Position numbers and translations under genes: made by a program. Below the pieces are notes generated by a model that was not told where the DNA came from, searched no databases, and worked only from the letters and a program-made list of their open reading frames with translations. 64,000 nucleotides of DNA from a bacterium (GTDB lineage Bacteria > Lernaellota > Lernaellaia > JACKCT01): NCBI GenBank assembly GCA_019912885.1, contig JAIOHV010000006.1:1-64000 (forward strand), in the 5' to 3' direction. Positions 25,312-36,630 of the stretch are shown one piece after another; the stretch's first letter is position 1, and every line of letters begins with the position of its first letter.

Positions 25312-27153
25312 CTATCGTGTGTATCGCCCGAGCCAATAGGCGAATCGGAAATCGACGCCCGGCAAAAGGCGCGTGCCGTTGCCGCCGCCGTTGACCTGAT
25401 ACGGATTCGAGCGCCACTCGTAGTTGCTGGGGCGGCGAATCTCCTTGGGGATCGGGTCCTCGGCGACGAGATCGTCGTTGCGTCCGACGTAGCCGAGCAC
25501 GGTGATCGGCGTCACGCCGTCGATTCCGATGCAGTCGCCGGAAAGGATTTCGTCCTCGTCGCAGTTGATGATCTCCACGTCCCAGTAGGGCGGTTCGGGA
25601 AAGGCGTGCAGCGTCTCGACGCCGTTCGCGACCGCGAGTTGGTCGGGCTCCTCGACTATGCTGGTGTACGCGCTCGCGCCCGCGGCGAAGGCGGCGAAGA
25701 TGAAGTCGTACATCGACATCTTCTGCTCCTTGGGCAGGCGCGGCCAGAACGGATGATCGTACATCTTGTTCGCCAGGACGTCGGCGATCCGGGCTCGAAA
25801 TTCGGGATCGTCGATGTATCGCATCGCCAGATACACCCCCATGAACTCCATGTTCACGCCGGAGTAGTTCGATTTCGTGCCGAAATGAAGGCCGATCAAA
25901 TTTTGTTCGACGATTTCGATGAAACCGCGCGCGGCGATGAGCGTGTCGTAGAGGTAGGCATAGGTTTCGTCATCCTCGGCGACGTACGCGAGCGACGCGA
26001 CGATGCCAAGCGACATCATGGCGTAGAATCCGTCCTTGAACGGCAGGAAAGGCAGATACAGGCGGTCGAACGCGTTCTCGTTCAGGAAACCGTGGAAGGT
26101 GCGCCGCCCGTCCGCGTCGTAAATCTCGAGGTCGTATCCGTTCGGGCGCACGGTCGCGAGCTGCTGGACCATCTCCTTGGCGTACAACTGCAGTTTGTCC
26201 TTCATGCCCTTGGCGAACGCGTCGTCGTCGCGGATGACCTCCCACGCCGCGCCGAACGCGGCGGACCAGCCGATGTACATATCGCGGCTGCACGAGTCTT
26301 CCCAGATGAAGTCGGGAAAAACGCCGCCGTCGGAGTTGTCCGCGCGCCAGGTGCCGTTATTCTTTTCGGGCGGCAGCGGATCGCCAAACTCGTCGAAAAG
26401 CGGTGTCAGCACCTGACTATCCTGATTGCCGGGGATATCCAGGCGGTTGTATCCGCGGGCGATCAGTCCCGGCTCGCCGGTGATTTCAACCGCGACGAAC
26501 AGCCCCTCGATGGCCGCGCGCAGGTGCTCGCGCGCCAGGTCGATCTCGGCTTGCGAATACTGTCCGGAATCGCGCACCACGGCGTAGCGGTACGCGTCCG
26601 CCACGATGCCCACGCCGCCGTAAAGGCCGGCGATCTTTTCGTAGGAGTCGATGACGTCAAAGGCGGTCTTGCCGCCGGAGTACGTTTCGAAATCCCACCC
26701 GTCCGTGTCCTGGACGAAACCGCGAATCAGTTCGCGATCGGCCGCGTCGGCCAGGGCGACGGTGAGATCCTGATTCAGGCCCGTGCCCGCCGCGTGGAAC
26801 GTATGGAACGTCCGGTCGTACTGGCGCGCCAGATCCTCGAGCGCCGCGTCGTAATCGGGCTCGCCCGGTCCGTGGATGAGCGCGTAGGGATAATTATCGA
26901 TGTCGTCGTCGCCCGTGTCGTCGTCATCGGCATCGTCGTCGCCGGAATCGTCGTCCGTCGCGTCGTCGTCATCGCCGCCGGTGTCGTCGTCGGCGTCGTC
27001 GTCGCCGGAATCGTCGTCGCCGGTATCGTCGTCACCGGGCGCGCCGCCGTCGTCGTCATCGTCGTCGCCGCACGAGCAACCGGCGGCGAAGATCAGCAGG
27101 GCGGCGGTCAGAAGCACGAGACACCGCGCCGTCAGGCCGTATTTCGCAAACAT
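25312..27153 (-). CDS. Surface-type lipoprotein with long Asp-rich linker
   Basis: The 613-residue precursor has a lipoprotein signal (ALLIFAAGC, Cys26). Next come CSCG and an aspartate-rich linker (about residues 30-84) of DDDDT/DDDSG units, then a globular domain of about 530 residues. That domain is rich in Trp, Tyr and acidic helices (AEIDLAREHLRAAIEGL, WSAAFGAAWEVIRDDDAF, FLNENAFDRLYLPFLPFKDGFYAMMSLG). It looks like an alpha/alpha-barrel, as in carbohydrate-processing enzymes, but no family motif is certain. The ATG at 27153 is used because it precedes the lipoprotein signal directly. The linker probably lifts the domain away from the outer membrane. Confidence 0.75.
   Translation of the reverse strand: MFAKYGLTARCLVLLTAALLIFAAGCSCGDDDDDDGGAPGDDDTGDDDSGDDDADDDTGGDDDDATDDDSGDDDADDDDTGDDDIDNYPYALIHGPGEPDYDAALEDLARQYDRTFHTFHAAGTGLNQDLTVALADAADRELIRGFVQDTDGWDFETYSGGKTAFDVIDSYEKIAGLYGGVGIVADAYRYAVVRDSGQYSQAEIDLAREHLRAAIEGLFVAVEITGEPGLIARGYNRLDIPGNQDSQVLTPLFDEFGDPLPPEKNNGTWRADNSDGGVFPDFIWEDSCSRDMYIGWSAAFGAAWEVIRDDDAFAKGMKDKLQLYAKEMVQQLATVRPNGYDLEIYDADGRRTFHGFLNENAFDRLYLPFLPFKDGFYAMMSLGIVASLAYVAEDDETYAYLYDTLIAARGFIEIVEQNLIGLHFGTKSNYSGVNMEFMGVYLAMRYIDDPEFRARIADVLANKMYDHPFWPRLPKEQKMSMYDFIFAAFAAGASAYTSIVEEPDQLAVANGVETLHAFPEPPYWDVEIINCDEDEILSGDCIGIDGVTPITVLGYVGRNDDLVAEDPIPKEIRRPSNYEWRSNPYQVNGGGNGTRLLPGVDFRFAYWLGRYTR
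26902..27066. repeat. Asp-codon repeat tract (N-terminal linker of lipoprotein)
   Basis: The tract consists of 9-18 base GAC/GAT units spelling DDD followed by T, S, A or G. GAC and GAT are mixed, so the DNA is not a pure trinucleotide run. It codes for residues 30-84 of the lipoprotein. Matching tracts occur at the C-terminal ends of the GH18 protein (30290-30358) and the glycosidase (45881-46156). Confidence 0.85.
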
Positions 27154-27286
27154 GAGCGATCCTCCCAAAACGCCGGGCGACGCCATTGCGCGCCTCATGC
27201 GGTCATGTCGAATGGGGCGACAGGTTACCAAATCCCGCCGGCGAAAGCACGCGCGCGGGCCGCGGAAATGTTATAGCGTCGCGGCG

Positions 27287-28952: not shown

Positions 28953-30388
28953 TGCGTAAGACGGCCGCGAACGAAACCCGCTTCCTTACGGTCGCGGTTC
29001 GTATTGGCGTGGCGCTCGCGTCATTTCATACGGTCGCGGTTCGTACTGGCGTGGCGCTCGCGTCATTTCATACAGTCGCGGTTCGTATTGGCGTGGCGCT
29101 CGCGTCATTTCATACAGTCGCGGTTCGTATTGGCGTGGCGCTCGCGGCAATTCTTGCGTTCGCGATACCGGCCGTGGCGCGGACAATCGGCGGGCATCGC
29201 GATTTCGCGCGCTGGGCGATCGAGCAGGGGCTCGAGCCTGGTCGCGAATCGCGCCCGGCCACACGGCCGCTCGCGAAGGCGGCGCCGCTTGCGCTTGGCG
29301 TCGAGTCGATCGGCTTTTATCCGTACTGGTCGACGGAAGACCCGGCCGATCTGCCCTACGACGTGCTCTCCGTCATCGCATGGTTCTCCGTCACGCTCGG
29401 CTCAAACGGTGATATCACCGTGTACAACGGCTGGCCGGACGGCACGCTCATCGACGAGGCGCACGCGAACGGCGTGAAGGTCGCGCTGACGGTCAACAAT
29501 TTTACGCCGACCGAACAGACGACGCTTCTTTCGAGTGCGATCAATCGCGCGAACGCGATCGACAATATCGTCTTTGAGGTCACGGACGCCGGCGCGGACG
29601 GCGTGAACATCGACTTTGAACTGCTTCCCGCGACGCAGAAGGCGAACTTCGTGACGTTCATCGAGGATCTGGCCGACGCGCTGCGCGCCGCGATACCGGG
29701 CGCTCATCTTTCGATCGACACGCCGGCGGTGGATTGGTCGGGCGCGTTCGATTACGACAAGCTCGCCGCCGCCGCGGACTACCTTTTCATCATGGCCTAC
29801 GACTATCACTACAAAGGCGGTGATCCCGGCCCGGTGTCGCCGCTTTTCGCGGGCACGCTTTGGAGTCCGTGGTCCATCGAGTGGACGCTGAACGACTACG
29901 AGACGTACATCTTTCCGTACGACCTCGCGAATACGATTGTCGGACTTCCTCTCTACGGTTACGACTGGCCGACGACAACCGGCGCGGTGCCCGGCACGAA
30001 ACGCGGCACGGGCCTCGCGACGATCCTCGCGACCGCGGTGAACATGGCCAATAGCGGATCGTACGGGCCGCGCCTGTGGGATGCCGGGAGCCGCACGCCT
30101 TATCTTGTCTACGACAAGGCAGGCGACGGCTGGCATCAGCTCTGGTACGACGATGCCGCGTCGCTCGCGGAGCGTTTCGAATACGCCGCGCTGCGCCATA
30201 CCGGCGGCGTCGGCTTCTGGGCGCTTGGCTATGAGGGAAGCCGCGAAGATGTCTGGGACGCGCTCGACGCGACGTTCGGCATCCCTGGCGATGATGACGA
30301 CGCGGCGGATGATGACGCCTCGGATGATGACGCGGCCGACGATGACGACGATGACGGCGGAATCGGACAGCTTTGCTGCGGAAGGTAG
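28952..30388 (+). CDS. Glycoside hydrolase family 18 protein with Asp-rich Cys tail
   Basis: The 478-residue protein has a repeat-built hydrophobic N-terminus (four copies of TVAVRIGVALASFH), then a GH18 barrel. The signature DGVNIDFELLP carries the catalytic Glu at about residue 223; IGFYPYW near the start and YDYHYKGG, GLPLYGYDWP and GVGFWALGYEG later are typical of spore-cortex/chitinase-like GH18 enzymes. Such enzymes cleave beta-1,4 bonds next to N-acetylglucosamine. The C-terminal tail is Asp-rich (about residues 447-469) and ends GGIGQLCCGR. It is coupled to the small barrel gene upstream. Export and surface attachment are likely. Confidence 0.88.
   Translation: MRKTAANETRFLTVAVRIGVALASFHTVAVRTGVALASFHTVAVRIGVALASFHTVAVRIGVALAAILAFAIPAVARTIGGHRDFARWAIEQGLEPGRESRPATRPLAKAAPLALGVESIGFYPYWSTEDPADLPYDVLSVIAWFSVTLGSNGDITVYNGWPDGTLIDEAHANGVKVALTVNNFTPTEQTTLLSSAINRANAIDNIVFEVTDAGADGVNIDFELLPATQKANFVTFIEDLADALRAAIPGAHLSIDTPAVDWSGAFDYDKLAAAADYLFIMAYDYHYKGGDPGPVSPLFAGTLWSPWSIEWTLNDYETYIFPYDLANTIVGLPLYGYDWPTTTGAVPGTKRGTGLATILATAVNMANSGSYGPRLWDAGSRTPYLVYDKAGDGWHQLWYDDAASLAERFEYAALRHTGGVGFWALGYEGSREDVWDALDATFGIPGDDDDAADDDASDDDAADDDDDDGGIGQLCCGR
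28988..29147. repeat. 42-base tandem repeat forming the GH18 leader
   Basis: Three full 42-base units (28988-29029, 29030-29071, 29072-29113) and a partial fourth, differing by one or two bases, encode 14-residue units TVAVRIGVALASFH. Unit length is a multiple of three and each unit is hydrophobic, so extra copies lengthen the leader without breaking the frame. Units start near CGGTCGCGG, like those at 1660-1743. Confidence 0.93.
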
Positions 30389-30395
30389 CGGCCGT

Positions 30396-31469
30396 TTATT
30401 CGAACGATTCTTCGTCCAGCATGTGACGCGGCGACGGGGCCGTAGCGTCCGTCGCGGACGTTTCCACGACGGGCGGAAGATACCATCGCCCTTGCCGCTC
30501 CGCCCGTTTCGGGAACAGCGATTTCTCCACGATCTCCGGGAATGTCTCAAGCGGCGTGACGAGGTTTTCCGCGACCAATTCGTCGTGCAGCGGCGCGAGA
30601 TCCGCCGCGCCGAAAATCCCCCGGCGCACGCCTTCGGCCAGGTCCTCGGCTAGATCGTCCCGGCAAGCATGGTCGATCGCCAGCATGGCGCGCGCGCTGT
30701 CAACGGCGGCCTGGGCGCGCACAAGGCCGCCGAGCGTCATGTGCACGGCCATCTGAAACGCGCTGCGGCAGGCGACAAGGTCGCTTGAGAACGGCGCGAA
30801 GATTTTTGGGTCCGTCCGTTTTTCGAGATAGATGTAGATCCGCTCGACGCGCTCGCCGGGCGGTTTTACCGCGCGGAACGCCTCGATCACCTCGGCCTTT
30901 TCTTCCGCGTCGCATCGCTCGCGGCGCAAAATCTCCGACAGCTCCGCTTCGTTGACGCGCCCGGCGAGGATGTCGGCGTAGAGCGCGTAGGCACGCGCGT
31001 CGGCCTCCGCGTCGTCGCCGATCAGAATCTCGCGCGCGCTCTCGGGAAGCCGCGTGCGCTGGTGCAAAAGAGCGCTGACCTTGTAGGGCAACTGGCGGCG
31101 CAACCACGCCGGCTTTTTTCGCTTGAAAAGAATCTGCCGCCAGTCCTTGCACGTGACGCCGTCGCATTGCACGCCGTCGATCAGCATCTTGCGATAGACC
31201 TCCTTCATGATGAACGGAGGGCTCGCGGTCAGAAAGAAAAACGGCGTTTGCGCATTCTCGATTGCGCCGCCGTGACGCAACTCCCGAAGCACCGGCGCCA
31301 TGCCCGCGATGGCGCGTTTGTCCTCGGCTTTTTCCATCGGGATGATCGCCAGGCCGAGCCACGATTCGAAATCGGATTCGAGATACGTTTTGTCGACGTC
31401 GCAGGTGATGACGCGCCCGGCGTATTCGGCGGGCAGGGTGCGTTCATCGTGTCGCACGAGAGGATACAT
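30396..31469 (-). CDS. HAD/App1-like phosphatase
   Basis: The 357-residue protein opens with a HAD-type catalytic motif, ITCDVDKTYLES (Asp24 and Asp26). TPFFFLTASPP, DGVTCKDW and LIGDDAEADARAYALYADI follow, the last being the motif IV-like acidic pair. This order matches the App1/DUF2183 phosphatidate-phosphatase-type proteins, which have D-x-D-x-T at their core. The C-terminal about 130 residues are helical and of unknown role. It is the last gene of an operon after a PlsB-like acyltransferase and a GpsA-like protein, one base after the latter, so hydrolysis of a phospholipid or lysophosphatidate is the favoured function. The ATG is at 31469. Confidence 0.72.
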   Translation of the reverse strand: MYPLVRHDERTLPAEYAGRVITCDVDKTYLESDFESWLGLAIIPMEKAEDKRAIAGMAPVLRELRHGGAIENAQTPFFFLTASPPFIMKEVYRKMLIDGVQCDGVTCKDWRQILFKRKKPAWLRRQLPYKVSALLHQRTRLPESAREILIGDDAEADARAYALYADILAGRVNEAELSEILRRERCDAEEKAEVIEAFRAVKPPGERVERIYIYLEKRTDPKIFAPFSSDLVACRSAFQMAVHMTLGGLVRAQAAVDSARAMLAIDHACRDDLAEDLAEGVRRGIFGAADLAPLHDELVAENLVTPLETFPEIVEKSLFPKRAERQGRWYLPPVVETSATDATAPSPRHMLDEESFE

Positions 31470-31470
31470 G

Positions 31471-32550
31471 TCAGCTCCGGCCGCGCCCGCCTTTCGGCAT
31501 GATGGCCGTCGCGCTTCGGCGCGCGTCGTCGAGATCGAGCCGCAGATCCTCGCCAAGCCGCGCCTCGCGCGCGATCAGGCGGCGCGCGGCCTCGGCCGGC
31601 GTAAGATCGCCGGTGAGAACCCCCCGCACGGCGGCGAGGATCGGCGCGCGAACGCACCGCGATTCGACAAGGCGCGCGGCCGCGTCGATGGTTGCGAGCG
31701 TTTCGGCGAGACCCGCGTCCGGCGGTTCGGCGCGCTTGCGCGACCGCGCGCGGTGCGTGCCGTATCGGTAGGCGGGCGATCCGTCCGCGTAGGTCTCGGC
31801 GACGATGCCGCCGAGCCCCGCGAGGCCGGCGAGCGTCGCGGGATCGGCGCCGAGCGTCGCGGCGATGCGCGCCATCTCCGCGACCGATCGCGTCACAAGA
31901 ATCGCGCGCGAGGCCGCGCCGAAACCGAGGCCGTCGGCGATGCCCGCGGCGATCGCGTAGATCGGCGCGAGCGACGCGCCGACCTCGACGCCCGCCAGGT
32001 CGCTTGTGCCGTAGGCGTGAAATCGATCGGTCGTGAAAAGGCGGCGCGCCTCGCCGACGACCTCGGCAAACGGCGAGGCGACAAGCCCGGCGGCCGGCAC
32101 GTTCGAGACCAATTCCGCGGGCTCGTGAACGCCGGCCAGAACGCCGATCTTCCGGACGCAGCATTCGGCGCGAATGACATCGCTTGCCGTCACAAGGCGC
32201 CCGTCAAACGCAAGGCCGCGGACGGCGTGCAGGACAATGTGTTCACCCGTGAGGTGTTCGCCGATCTCGCGCATCAACCCGCGCAATTCGTCAAGCGGCA
32301 CGGCCAGGAACAGGACCGGCGCAGCGCACGCCTGCGCGGCGTTGCTCGCCGTCGACAATCGCGGCAAGGCCTTCGCGCGCCCAAAGCGCGTGGCCAGGGC
32401 CTCCTTGGCGAGCCGGTCCGCGAGGCCAGACGTAGCGGCGTAGACGCGAATCCGCCCGGCGCCGGCGCCTTGCGCGAGCAACGCGTACGCCAATGCGAGA
32501 TCGCCGTCGCCGAAAACGGTCAGCGCGGTGTCCGGCGCGTTCGGCGTCAT
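31471..32550 (-). CDS. GpsA-like glycerol-3-phosphate dehydrogenase homologue, active site lost
   Basis: The 359-residue protein has the GpsA domain order: a Rossmann start (TVFGDGDLALAYA, 11-23) and the C-terminal helical domain with LAGVEVGASLAPIYAIAAGIADGLGFG (186-211) and MARIAATLGADPATLAGLAGLGG. However, positions that are nearly invariant in true enzymes are changed. The catalytic Lys of GALKN is Ala195 in ASLAP; the KG Lys is Arg111; the Asp of GLGDL is Gly248; and the SRNRxxG substrate motif is SPAYRYG (258-264). The glycine motif GxGxxG is also altered (GDGDLA). It is likely not a working dehydrogenase; binding of G3P or of the coenzyme as a sensor or partner is possible. Translation is coupled to the acyltransferase by ATGA (32547-32550). 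Confidence 0.8.
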   Translation of the reverse strand: MTPNAPDTALTVFGDGDLALAYALLAQGAGAGRIRVYAATSGLADRLAKEALATRFGRAKALPRLSTASNAAQACAAPVLFLAVPLDELRGLMREIGEHLTGEHIVLHAVRGLAFDGRLVTASDVIRAECCVRKIGVLAGVHEPAELVSNVPAAGLVASPFAEVVGEARRLFTTDRFHAYGTSDLAGVEVGASLAPIYAIAAGIADGLGFGAASRAILVTRSVAEMARIAATLGADPATLAGLAGLGGIVAETYADGSPAYRYGTHRARSRKRAEPPDAGLAETLATIDAAARLVESRCVRAPILAAVRGVLTGDLTPAEAARRLIAREARLGEDLRLDLDDARRSATAIMPKGGRGRS

Positions 32551-34202
32551 GTGTCCGGCCCCCCGATGCCGTATCCGAACAGGCGATTGCGGTAGTAGTA
32601 GAGCAGCTTCATATCGCCGACGAACAGGCGGTCGCCGCGCCGGTAGAGAACGGGCTGCGTGTGATAGCCGCCGAACCGGCGCAGCGCGCTGTTGACGAGC
32701 GCGGTCGCGTCGCCGGATTGCGCCGTCCCCGCCAGGTGGAGATCGCCGGCGCCGGCCCGATCGCGCAAGAGCGCAAGCACGCGGTCCACCTCACGATGCA
32801 CCTCGACAAGCGGCACGGACACCTCGCGCGGCGTTTCGCGCAAAAAGCGGAAGAAGTCCGGGTCGTCGCTTTCGCGCCGGATGCGCTCGAACACGGTGAA
32901 GGCGAGGGTGTGCGTGGACTGGATGACGGTATCGCGCACGAACGATTCGACAACGCGCTCGCCGAGTTCGCGTGTGAACTCGCGGTCGCGATCGGCGTCG
33001 TCCACGTATTCGCCACGCCGTTGCAGGTACTTTCGCGTATCGATGACGCGCCCGCGGCCGTCGAGCGAGCGGCCCTCGTCGTCCACCCGGTTGCCGAACG
33101 GATCGAGCGCGGGCGAGACGCGCAGGTAGATGCGGTCGTCGAGCGTCACGATGTTGCGAAGGAACGAGTAGATACGCGACGGCATGCTGAACTCGTCGTC
33201 CTCGATGATATAGCGGCTCTTGCCCGCGTCCTTCAGGTAATCGTCGATGAGGTTTTCGGCCTCGAGCACGATCTGGTAGTTGATCGTACACGGGACGACG
33301 TAGACGTTGGGCTTCGGCTTGCCGGCGCGCAGGTTCGCAAGATAGGCGTTGAGCCCGCATCCCATGAGCCCAAGCTTGAGGTGGCGCTCCACCGCGCCGG
33401 AGCGGCTGCGCGTTCCGCCCGGAAAAAACAGGTTGTGGTAGCCGGCCTCGATGGTGACCGTCGCGTATTCCTTCAGCACCTGCTTGTAGAGCGAATGCTG
33501 CTTGAGCCGATCGACCTTGTACGCCCCGAGGCGGTGCATGAAAAAGCCGATGATCTTGTGATGGAACAGGTTCAGGCCCGCGCCGTAGGTGAACGGCGGA
33601 AGGCCCATGTGATAGATCGCCCAGCCCATCAGCGGCGAATCGACGTTGGACTGGTGCGTCGGCACCAGAACCACCGTGCCGAGCTTGTCGAGCTTGCGAA
33701 TCTGCTCGACTTCGCCGTCGATGCGCACGTTTCGCGAAACGTCCGGGAGGTTCGGAAGCGACGTGACGAGCTTGACCGGGCTTAGCGCGCTCAGCATGAA
33801 GCCAAGGCCCACGGGCAACACCGTCGTCGAGAACTGATACACGGGCTCGGAAAAGTGGCCGACGATCTCCCGCACGTGGTGATCGACGATCTCTTCCACG
33901 AGTCGCCGTTTTTCGGCCTCGCTGGCCTTGCCGAAGCGCGAGCGGATCGACGCGAGCCACGCGCGGTCACGTTTCTGGTTTAGCCGATAGGGCAGGCGCT
34001 CGATGCGGCGCTGCTCGAAGTAGAGGACCTCGTGGATGAGGTTGTCGAGAAACGCCTCCTCGCTTTTGGCCGCGCGGGCGAGCACGTCCTTGTGAACGCG
34101 GCTGCGCACTTCCACGGCGATGCGCTCCTGGTCGTCCGCGGACATCCGTCCGGGCGTGCCGGGAGCGCGAAGGAATTCAAGAGCGCGGGAAATGTCGAGC
34201 AT
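32547..34202 (-). CDS. PlsB-like glycerol-3-phosphate/lysophosphatidate acyltransferase
   Basis: The 551-residue protein has the acyltransferase motifs of the PlsB/PlsC superfamily: motif I PTHQSNVDSP (His183, Asp188), motif III FFPGGTRSRSG (about 259-269), and VYVVPCTINYQIVLEAE as motif IV. The enzyme would acylate sn-glycerol-3-phosphate at position 1 on the membrane, the first step of phospholipid synthesis. It is shorter than E. coli PlsB (about 800). The start at 34202 (MLDISRALEF) is chosen by the onset of coherent sequence. First gene of a three-gene operon with a GpsA homologue and a phosphatase. Confidence 0.85.
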   Translation of the reverse strand: MLDISRALEFLRAPGTPGRMSADDQERIAVEVRSRVHKDVLARAAKSEEAFLDNLIHEVLYFEQRRIERLPYRLNQKRDRAWLASIRSRFGKASEAEKRRLVEEIVDHHVREIVGHFSEPVYQFSTTVLPVGLGFMLSALSPVKLVTSLPNLPDVSRNVRIDGEVEQIRKLDKLGTVVLVPTHQSNVDSPLMGWAIYHMGLPPFTYGAGLNLFHHKIIGFFMHRLGAYKVDRLKQHSLYKQVLKEYATVTIEAGYHNLFFPGGTRSRSGAVERHLKLGLMGCGLNAYLANLRAGKPKPNVYVVPCTINYQIVLEAENLIDDYLKDAGKSRYIIEDDEFSMPSRIYSFLRNIVTLDDRIYLRVSPALDPFGNRVDDEGRSLDGRGRVIDTRKYLQRRGEYVDDADRDREFTRELGERVVESFVRDTVIQSTHTLAFTVFERIRRESDDPDFFRFLRETPREVSVPLVEVHREVDRVLALLRDRAGAGDLHLAGTAQSGDATALVNSALRRFGGYHTQPVLYRRGDRLFVGDMKLLYYYRNRLFGYGIGGPDT

Positions 34203-34381
34203 GGCCGCCGCATGATAGGTCTGCGTTACAAGGCGTACAACATGGCCTTGCGTTATCTCCGCGCCTTGCACGACGATCCGCGTGTCCGTGCCCGGTTCAT
34301 GGCACGACCACGGATTTTGCGATGCGCGTCTTGCGTGGTAGGGTCCAAGCGCCGCGCGAGTCGATACGAAGGAGGAGGCGC

Positions 34382-35653
34382 ATGAGCGTACCAACAACGG
34401 TCGTCGACCCGGCTGCCGCCCGCGCGGCGGACCTTCGCGCACGATACGACGAGGTCCGCGCCGCGACCGAGGCGTTTTGCGACCCGCTTTCGACCGAGGA
34501 TTACGTCGTCCAGTCCATGCCCGACGTCAGCCCGACGAAATGGCATCTGGCGCATACGAGCTGGTTTTTCGAAACATTGATTCTCGAGCGGGGATTGCCG
34601 GGCTACAAGGTATTTCACGACGATTTTCGGATTCTTTTCAACTCCTACTACAACACCATCGGCCCGCAGCACGCGCGTCCCGAGCGCGGTTTCATCACGC
34701 GGCCGGGCGTCGAGGCGACACGCGCCTACCGCCGGCACGTCGATGACGGCATGCGGCGGTTTTTCGCCGAACCGGCGCCCGAATGGCTCGATATCGTCGA
34801 AATCGGCCTGCACCACGAACAGCAGCATCAGGAGCTCATGGTCACCGACCTCAAGCACGTGCTCTCGTGTAACCCGCTCAATCCGGTTTATCGCGCCTTC
34901 GAACGCGAAGCGCCCGTCGCCGTGCCCGGGCCGCTCACGTTCCGCGAATTTCCGGAGGGGCAAGTCGAGATCGGCCACGCGGGCGACGGATTTGCTTACG
35001 ACAACGAAAGCCCGCGACACCGGCGTTTCGTGAACGCCTTCGCGCTTGGCGAGCGATTGGTCACGAACGGCGAATACCTCGAGTTCATGAACGACGGCGG
35101 ATACGCCCGCGCCGAGTTCTGGCTTTCCGACGGCTGGTTCGCCGTCGCGAAAAAAGGCTGGCGCGCGCCGCTGTACTGGCGCGAGCGCGAGGGAGCCTGG
35201 CACGCCTTCACGCTTGGCGGGCTGCTGCCGGTCGACCCGAACGAGCCCGTGTGTCACGTGAGCTATTACGAAGCCGATGCGTTCGCGCGTTGGGCGGGCG
35301 CACGTCTCGCGCGCGAAGACGAGTGGGAGATCGCCGCGCGCGAGCAGGCGATCGAAGGCCATTTCGTCGAATCCCGCCGCTATCATCCGCGCGGCGCGGC
35401 CGGCGCCGGGATGCGTCAACTCTACGGCGACGTCTGGGAGTGGACGCAGAGTCCCTACATGCCCTATCCGGGCTATCGGCCGGCCGCGGGGCCGCTTGGC
35501 GAATACAACGGCAAATTCATGTGCGACCAGTTCGTCCTGCGCGGCGGGTCGTGCGCCACAAGCCGGACGCACATCCGTGCGACGTACCGCAACTTTTTCC
35601 CGGCCGCCGCACGCTGGCAGTTTTCGGGCATCCGCCTCGCGAAAGACGTATGA
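34382..35653 (+). CDS. egtB: Ergothioneine biosynthesis sulfoxide synthase EgtB
   Basis: The 423-residue non-heme iron enzyme joins a thiol to trimethyl-histidine (hercynine) with oxygen. The N-terminal DinB-like domain carries the iron ligands: His58 in KWHLAHTSW, and His145 and His149 in the LHHEQQHQE box. The C-terminal FGE-sulfatase domain contains GDVWEWTQSPY and FVLRGGSCATSRTHIRATYRNFF. Length and motif order match EgtB closely. Its stop overlaps the egtD start by four bases (35650-35653). An AGGAGG ribosome site precedes the ATG at 34382. Confidence 0.95.
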   Translation: MSVPTTVVDPAAARAADLRARYDEVRAATEAFCDPLSTEDYVVQSMPDVSPTKWHLAHTSWFFETLILERGLPGYKVFHDDFRILFNSYYNTIGPQHARPERGFITRPGVEATRAYRRHVDDGMRRFFAEPAPEWLDIVEIGLHHEQQHQELMVTDLKHVLSCNPLNPVYRAFEREAPVAVPGPLTFREFPEGQVEIGHAGDGFAYDNESPRHRRFVNAFALGERLVTNGEYLEFMNDGGYARAEFWLSDGWFAVAKKGWRAPLYWREREGAWHAFTLGGLLPVDPNEPVCHVSYYEADAFARWAGARLAREDEWEIAAREQAIEGHFVESRRYHPRGAAGAGMRQLYGDVWEWTQSPYMPYPGYRPAAGPLGEYNGKFMCDQFVLRGGSCATSRTHIRATYRNFFPAAARWQFSGIRLAKDV

Positions 35654-36630
35654 AAAGCGTGGACGACACCGCGACCGTGGAGGCGCTTCATTTCGCGCCC
35701 GATGAAGCGACCTTTTTCGCCGAGGTGATGGACGGTCTCACCGCCCGTCCCAAGACGCTGCCGTGTAAATACTTCTACGACGCGCGCGGCTCGCAGCTAT
35801 TCGAGCGCATCTGCGCGCTTGCCGAATATTACCCAACGCGCACCGAGCTCGACATCATGATGAAACACGCGCCCGAGATGGCCCAGTTTATCGGCGCGCG
35901 CGCGGTGCTCATCGAATACGGCAGCGGCACAAGCACCAAGACGCGCGTGCTGCTCGATTATCTCGAAAAACCCGCGGCGTATGTGCCGATCGACATTTCC
36001 CGCGATCATCTTCTTCGCGCGGCCGCGGACGTCAACCTTGCGTATCCGGATCTGGCGGTGCTGCCGGTGTGCGCCGACTACACGGGCGATTTCGAGCTGC
36101 CCGACCTGCCCCAGGGTGCCGGCGCGCGCGTCGTCTATTTCCCCGGCTCGACGATCGGCAACTTCGATCCGGCCGACATTCCCGCGTTTTTCGGCCATGT
36201 CGCCGATGTCGTCGGCGCCGGCGGCGGATTCCTGATCGGCGTCGATCTCGTGAAGCCGCGCGAAACGCTGGAGCTTGCCTACAACGACGCGGCGGGCGTG
36301 ACCGCTGCGTTCAACAAGAACATTCTCGCGCGCATCAATCGCGAACTCGACGGGCGTTTTGATCTCGATGCGTTCGAGCACCGCGCGCATTTCAACGCCG
36401 AGCGTTCGCGCATCGAGATGCACCTGGTCAGCCGGCGCGATCAGGCCGTGCGCATCGGCGGCACGTTCGTCGCGTTTCGCAGGGGTGAATCGATCCACAC
36501 GGAGTCGTCCTACAAATATTCGCTGGATTCGTTCGCGTCGCTGGCCGAGGATCACGGTTTTCGAACGCGCCGCGTCTTTCTGGACGACGCCCGCCTGTTC
36601 AGCGTCCGGTTCCTGACGTATCGGGGCTAG
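35650..36630 (+). CDS. egtD: L-histidine N(alpha)-methyltransferase EgtD
   Basis: The 326-residue SAM-dependent methyltransferase converts histidine to hercynine, the EgtB substrate. Visible motifs: LPCKYFYDARGSQLFERIC near the N-terminus, IEYGSGTSTKTRVLLDYL (SAM loop), YFPGSTIGNFDP, and the C-terminal IHTESSYKYSLDSFASLAEDHGF. It is coupled to egtB. The genes egtA, egtC and egtE are not in the window; a minimal EgtB-EgtD route is known in many bacteria, with a separate lyase elsewhere. Confidence 0.96.
   Translation: MKSVDDTATVEALHFAPDEATFFAEVMDGLTARPKTLPCKYFYDARGSQLFERICALAEYYPTRTELDIMMKHAPEMAQFIGARAVLIEYGSGTSTKTRVLLDYLEKPAAYVPIDISRDHLLRAAADVNLAYPDLAVLPVCADYTGDFELPDLPQGAGARVVYFPGSTIGNFDPADIPAFFGHVADVVGAGGGFLIGVDLVKPRETLELAYNDAAGVTAAFNKNILARINRELDGRFDLDAFEHRAHFNAERSRIEMHLVSRRDQAVRIGGTFVAFRRGESIHTESSYKYSLDSFASLAEDHGFRTRRVFLDDARLFSVRFLTYRG

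Follow-up and report, generated by a model that had tools for sequence, protein, structure and literature searches.

We propose that a GpsA-like gene in the 64,000-nucleotide stretch of DNA analysed here (the window) encodes a pseudoenzyme, and on balance we lean towards its being a former operonic GpsA whose present role, as a subunit or regulator of the PlsB-type acyltransferase encoded directly upstream, is non-catalytic. In bacterial phospholipid synthesis, GpsA provides the glycerol backbone and PlsB performs the first acylation step. The features on which the argument depends are the following:

32547–34145, minus strand: PlsB-superfamily acyltransferase gene (relatives align from the Met at 34145; the ORF extends to 34442)
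32547–32550, minus strand: ATGA overlap of the PlsB-like stop and the GpsA-like start, from the ORF coordinates
31471–32550, minus strand: GpsA-like gene, the putative pseudo-dehydrogenase and main finding (359 aa, ATG start; identified by Pfam, NCBIfam, PDB and fold)
32494–32511, minus strand: Rossmann loop GDGDLA (G14–A19), a weakened GxGxxG, by alignment
32218–32220, minus strand: Arg111 codon, replacing Lys (human K120), by alignment
31966–31968, minus strand: Ala195 codon, replacing the catalytic Lys (human K204), by alignment
31807–31809, minus strand: Gly248 codon, replacing Asp (human D260), by alignment
31768–31776, minus strand: Pro259-Ala260-Tyr261, replacing Arg-Asn-Arg (phosphate-binding R269/N270), by alignment
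30396–31469, minus strand: APP1-like HAD phosphatase gene (Pfam APP1_cat 30.7 bits, cut-off 27.1)

The 359-aa product matches the Pfam domains NAD_Gly3P_dh_C (1.7e-26) and NAD_Gly3P_dh_N (6.6e-9), and a PDB sequence search returned the GpsA structure 3k96 (1.4e-26). An AlphaFold model (pLDDT 79.9, pTM 0.80), based on an alignment that included two canonical GpsAs from a viral-contig scan, recovered the two-domain GpsA fold with 3k96 as the top Foldseek match (E 2.7e-20, TM 0.78/0.85), confirming the GpsA-like fold and helical domain recognised in a preliminary description of the sequence. The protein shares with this canonical example its fold, domain order, length, most structural glycines and the Asp-x-x-Gly-x-Glu stretch. 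It differs in that all seven catalytic residues of the first and second shells are replaced, and in that all NCBIfam GpsA models match it far under their cut-offs (best 175.8 bits vs 257). Elsewhere the window's genome encodes a canonical GpsA with all residues intact (31% identical to the GpsA-like protein), a long PlsB and a glycerol kinase.

Numbered as in the human enzyme, the replaced residues are K120 (Arg111 in the window), K204 (Ala195), N205 (Pro196), D260 (Gly248), T264 (Glu252) and, in the phosphate site, R269/N270 (Pro259/Ala260, followed by Tyr261). The substitutions named in the preliminary description (Ala195, Arg111, Gly248 and Pro-Ala-Tyr) proved exact, with N205 and T264 lost in addition, and its non-catalytic reading is upheld in that the seven active-site residues of active homologues are all replaced. 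A catalytic lysine displaced by one or two positions, the caveat attached to that reading, was checked and is excluded since residues 134 to 272 contain no lysine. The alignment of 36 active GpsAs has 34 invariant columns; of these, the window protein retains none of the 7 catalytic ones vs 21 of the 27 others (Fisher p 3e-4). Judged from this alignment, the catalytic loss is therefore complete as well as active-site-specific, unlike general drift. In the human enzyme, R269A alone lowers kcat/Km 4.5e6-fold, K120A and K204A each lower kcat about 300-fold, and the values for D260G and N270A are 6.5 and 5.6 kcal/mol, respectively (PMC12874384).

Both neighbouring genes look catalytically intact from their motifs. 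The PlsB-like protein matches the Pfam Acyltransferase family (1.3e-17), NCBIfam plsB under its cut-off (3.8e-20) and a glycerol-3-phosphate acyltransferase in the PDB (4e-11); its motifs THQSNVD (HxxxxD), GAYKVDR and FFPGGTRSRSG are kept in all relatives, and it is 58–62% identical in sister genera. In the APP1-like protein the HAD motifs DVDKT and GDDAE are intact, with DVDKT and GDD invariant across three genera; its structure model was poor (pLDDT 67), and fold and PDB profile searches with it were uninformative. The tight coupling to both genes reported earlier is borne out by the ATGA overlap upstream, which probably couples translation of the plsB-like and GpsA-like genes, and by the APP1-like gene beginning 1 nt past the GpsA-like stop. 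Outside the operon, a divergent gene pair at 34322–36630 (plus strand) resembles, as read from sequence, the ergothioneine genes egtB/egtD, and such a pair also adjoins the operon in genome G002. A 42-bp tandem repeat of 4.2 copies lies at 28987–29164 in the 5′ part of a GH18-type-like secreted-protein ORF, and Asp-rich low-complexity stretches occur in secreted-looking ORFs at 26775–27231 (minus strand) and 30300–30390 (plus strand), similar to those in L009, the locus of G002.

Among seven genomes of the window's phylum, the three that belong to the window's family all have the PlsB, GpsA-like and APP1 trio, and the other four do not. A fourth copy came from a MAG labelled Myxococcales SURF_8. 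The GpsA-like gene directly follows the PlsB-like gene in all four genomes, and K204-N205 is replaced in every copy (Ala-Pro, Ala-Pro, Ala-Ala, Ser-Glu). Decay limited to the window's genome is ruled out, as the loss is common to the four family genomes and to a second phylum described below. In three genomes of family f3 within the window's phylum (G004, G005, G006) and in the genome of L023 (G386), two of these four being 96% complete, a canonical GpsA was not found and glycerol kinase was present in all, so G3P is probably obtained from glycerol.

These family data bear most directly on the strongest competing explanation, that the gene is a fading operonic GpsA, redundant with the canonical enzyme and kept between two useful coupled genes. 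Between genera the GpsA-like copies are only 32–43% identical vs about 60% for PlsB and about 52% for APP1, and their sites are saturated, such that dN/dS is not measurable. The Rossmann loop is eroding: it reads GDGDLA in the window and is eroded or missing in L009 and L023 (as it also is in the f265 copies of the second phylum), with about 40 Rossmann-domain residues absent from L009. The genomes also encode a canonical GpsA or glycerol kinase. However, the frame is open in three of the four genera despite >60% divergence, and the fold core is kept. The sole frameshift in the GpsA-like gene occurs in G002 (77% completeness), where frame changes at about 8110 and 9145 affect PlsB and, within a run of A, the GpsA-like gene; since the neighbouring PlsB gene is broken too, these may be assembly errors. 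Parallel dead copies in the second phylum are furthermore under purifying selection and carry new fixed residues. We consider a relic unlikely, if the most serious of the alternatives.

To place the operon more broadly, we swept 386 genomes across bacteria for the window's PlsB subfamily and detected it in 14 genomes beyond the family, at 38–48% identity. GpsA follows PlsB in 10 of these, often with APP1 next, and nine of the ten GpsAs are catalytically complete within the reach of the contigs, the dead exception being that of G379. On sequence evidence, several distant lineages thus have a PlsB-GpsA(-APP1) operon, as a rule with a predicted active GpsA of its own clade. Such operonic GpsAs (L063, L062, L066, L131, L218), for which we know of no established name, share with the window protein its clade, its place behind PlsB, an APP1 gene that often adjoins and the signature K-x-G-x-x-(S/A)-G. 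They differ in keeping K120, N151, K204, N205, D260, T264, R269 and N270, and with this set should be active. Contig scans with the PlsB alignment returned family members only, as N-terminal patterns were used, and plasmid searches returned canonical PlsB and GpsA only.

Following G379, we searched 237 genomes of a second phylum, probably Myxococcota and so named here, and found dead GpsA-like copies in about 50 of those sampled. We classified 57 dead sequences (43 and 14 in two rounds); PlsB lies directly upstream in 42, and no PlsB was detected near the other 15 (seven in family f204, eight in f265). A census of the 42 loci identified PlsB as the sole neighbour common to nearly all (same strand in 38/42). 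The APP1 link is confined to the window's family and to operons with a still-active GpsA, and constant APP1 linkage is ruled out by Myxococcota dead copies that lack an APP1 gene. Every active sequence reaching the catalytic region has the complete set and intermediates are nearly absent, L214, with N205 and D260 kept, being intermediate-like. When a dead-copy profile was run against the 386 genomes, the top-ranking matches came exclusively from Myxococcota and the window's family, and the next readable matches below them carry Lys-Asn. Active and dead PlsB-GpsA operons occur on separate contigs of one genome in two cases (L131/L112 in G603, L134/L128 in G618). As separate observations, eight dead GpsA-like genes of family f265 (L200–L207) have another residue set (e.g. 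HTLRAL, AYARA) and no adjoining PlsB detected, and PlsB is present at L146 and L147 of the same family. An iron-type alcohol dehydrogenase-like ORF lies right behind the pseudo-GpsA of G379 (L072, 9171–10346), and similar ORFs trail those of L158, L159 and L161.

The Myxococcota proteins (e.g. L072, L103, L148) resemble the window protein in having a dead active site, in lying directly behind PlsB and, in the genomes checked, in having a canonical GpsA as a paralogue. They differ from the window protein in that GxGxxG and Asp260 are retained, Arg-Pro-Glu is fixed and there is no APP1 gene, and they represent a separate loss on the PlsB tree. Within the main group, nearly all copies have GxGxxG, all have Asp260 and 94% have an Arg close to the dinucleotide site; K120 is replaced by a fixed Arg, and Ser-Arg-Asn by the Arg-Pro-Glu. 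In eight of nine related pairs dN/dS was 0.10–0.25, somewhat higher than for PlsB of the same loci (about 0.07–0.14); the outlier pair had 0.63 (0.40 for its PlsB). As estimated from these coding sequences, the Myxococcota dead copies are under purifying selection, and their residues appear to be conserved for something besides G3P dehydrogenation.

A GpsA tree inferred without the catalytic columns placed the operonic GpsAs, dead ones and the window protein included, in a 62-row clade apart from canonical GpsA (100/99). The phylogeny proposed in the preliminary description was thus worthwhile, and its question of a separate clade always linked to PlsB and App1 is answered in the affirmative only in part: the PlsB link stands (42/57), whereas the APP1 link does not, nor do the dead copies' partners form a single clade on the PlsB tree. 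The two trees differ on a single origin of the dead copies, which the GpsA tree favours by nesting all of them as one group (98/97), with separation rejected only marginally (p 0.046), and which the PlsB tree rejects (AU p 8e-5 for one clade of their partners). In the latter, the window's family is placed next to Myxococcota operons whose GpsA is active (94/81), apart from the main dead group of Myxococcota (100/95), and L214 makes a third case, such that the best tree requires three changes from active to dead. Given the long branches of the dead copies in the GpsA tree, at least two independent losses of catalysis are favoured, with exchange of GpsA between operons as the alternative. Since the PlsB tree rejects a single clade and needs three changes, the linkage would have outlived catalysis more than once.

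We hypothesise that the ancestor was a GpsA long paired in an operon with a PlsB-type acyltransferase, an arrangement that many lineages still have with a complete GpsA. This ancestral GpsA may have had a second, structural role toward PlsB, such as handing over G3P, that outlasted catalysis. The dehydrogenase site would then have been lost in the window's family and separately in the second phylum, with protein, fold and plsB-adjacent place kept; G3P would come from a canonical GpsA and/or glycerol kinase encoded elsewhere. The dead GpsA would most likely belong to the acyltransferase as a subunit or regulate it, for instance through stabilisation or gating; the contact, the direction of the effect and the ligand are what we infer here. 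Myxococcota copies with a kept dinucleotide loop may in addition respond to NAD(P)(H). The wider proposal is more tentative, namely that PlsB-linked pseudo-GpsAs form a class, arisen independently in at least two phyla, of regulatory subunits of the acyltransferase that starts lipid synthesis, with the Myxococcota members possibly reporting NAD(P)(H) state via a chemically dead site.

Alternatively, the protein could be an altered enzyme that uses a different catalytic residue to reduce another substrate, for instance the acyl- or alkyl-DHAP that its neighbour would make. A DHAP acyltransferase followed by a reductase is a fitting pathway logic, and the Myxococcota copies have acquired fixed His, Arg and Glu residues besides keeping GxGxxG and Asp260. 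However, the K204 position has no consistent acid/base (Val, Ala, Thr, Met, Ser, Ile, Asn), and the window protein lacks Asp260, has a degraded nucleotide loop and has lost the substrate-phosphate site. An acyl-DHAP or ether-lipid reductase in particular is disfavoured; a review of myxobacterial ether lipids names other genes (PMC9131029). We regard an altered enzyme as improbable. Least probable is the G3P-binding sensor or channel of the preliminary description, which would bind G3P without turnover and feed or gate PlsB: it accords with descent from a G3P-producing enzyme and with the acyltransferase linkage, but is left unsupported by the replacement in the window of the phosphate ligands R269 and N270, of K120 and K204, which contact substrate oxygens, and of N205, and by the Pro-Glu at the Myxococcota phosphate site, within the fixed Arg-Pro-Glu.

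The role we favour, a non-catalytic partner of the acyltransferase, belongs to a known kind, since pseudoenzymes acting as regulators are familiar. A search of the open-access literature found no description of a pseudo-GpsA or of a PlsB-GpsA-APP1 operon, and as far as checked the PlsB-linked pseudo-GpsA is a new form of pseudoenzyme. The human GPD1-like protein (GPD1L) is comparable as a second GpsA/GPD1-family paralogue within one genome; it differs in that it retains the catalytic lysines and is not known to be tied to an acyltransferase gene.

Annotation by family match will mislabel dozens of such genes as G3P dehydrogenases. With active as well as dead versions at one position, sometimes within a single genome, the operon provides a natural experiment in pseudoenzyme evolution. 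Repeated loss of the chemistry in a gene pair that persisted implies that the protein is of importance to the acyltransferase beyond the supply of G3P and, if true, this would constitute a control point where lipid synthesis begins.
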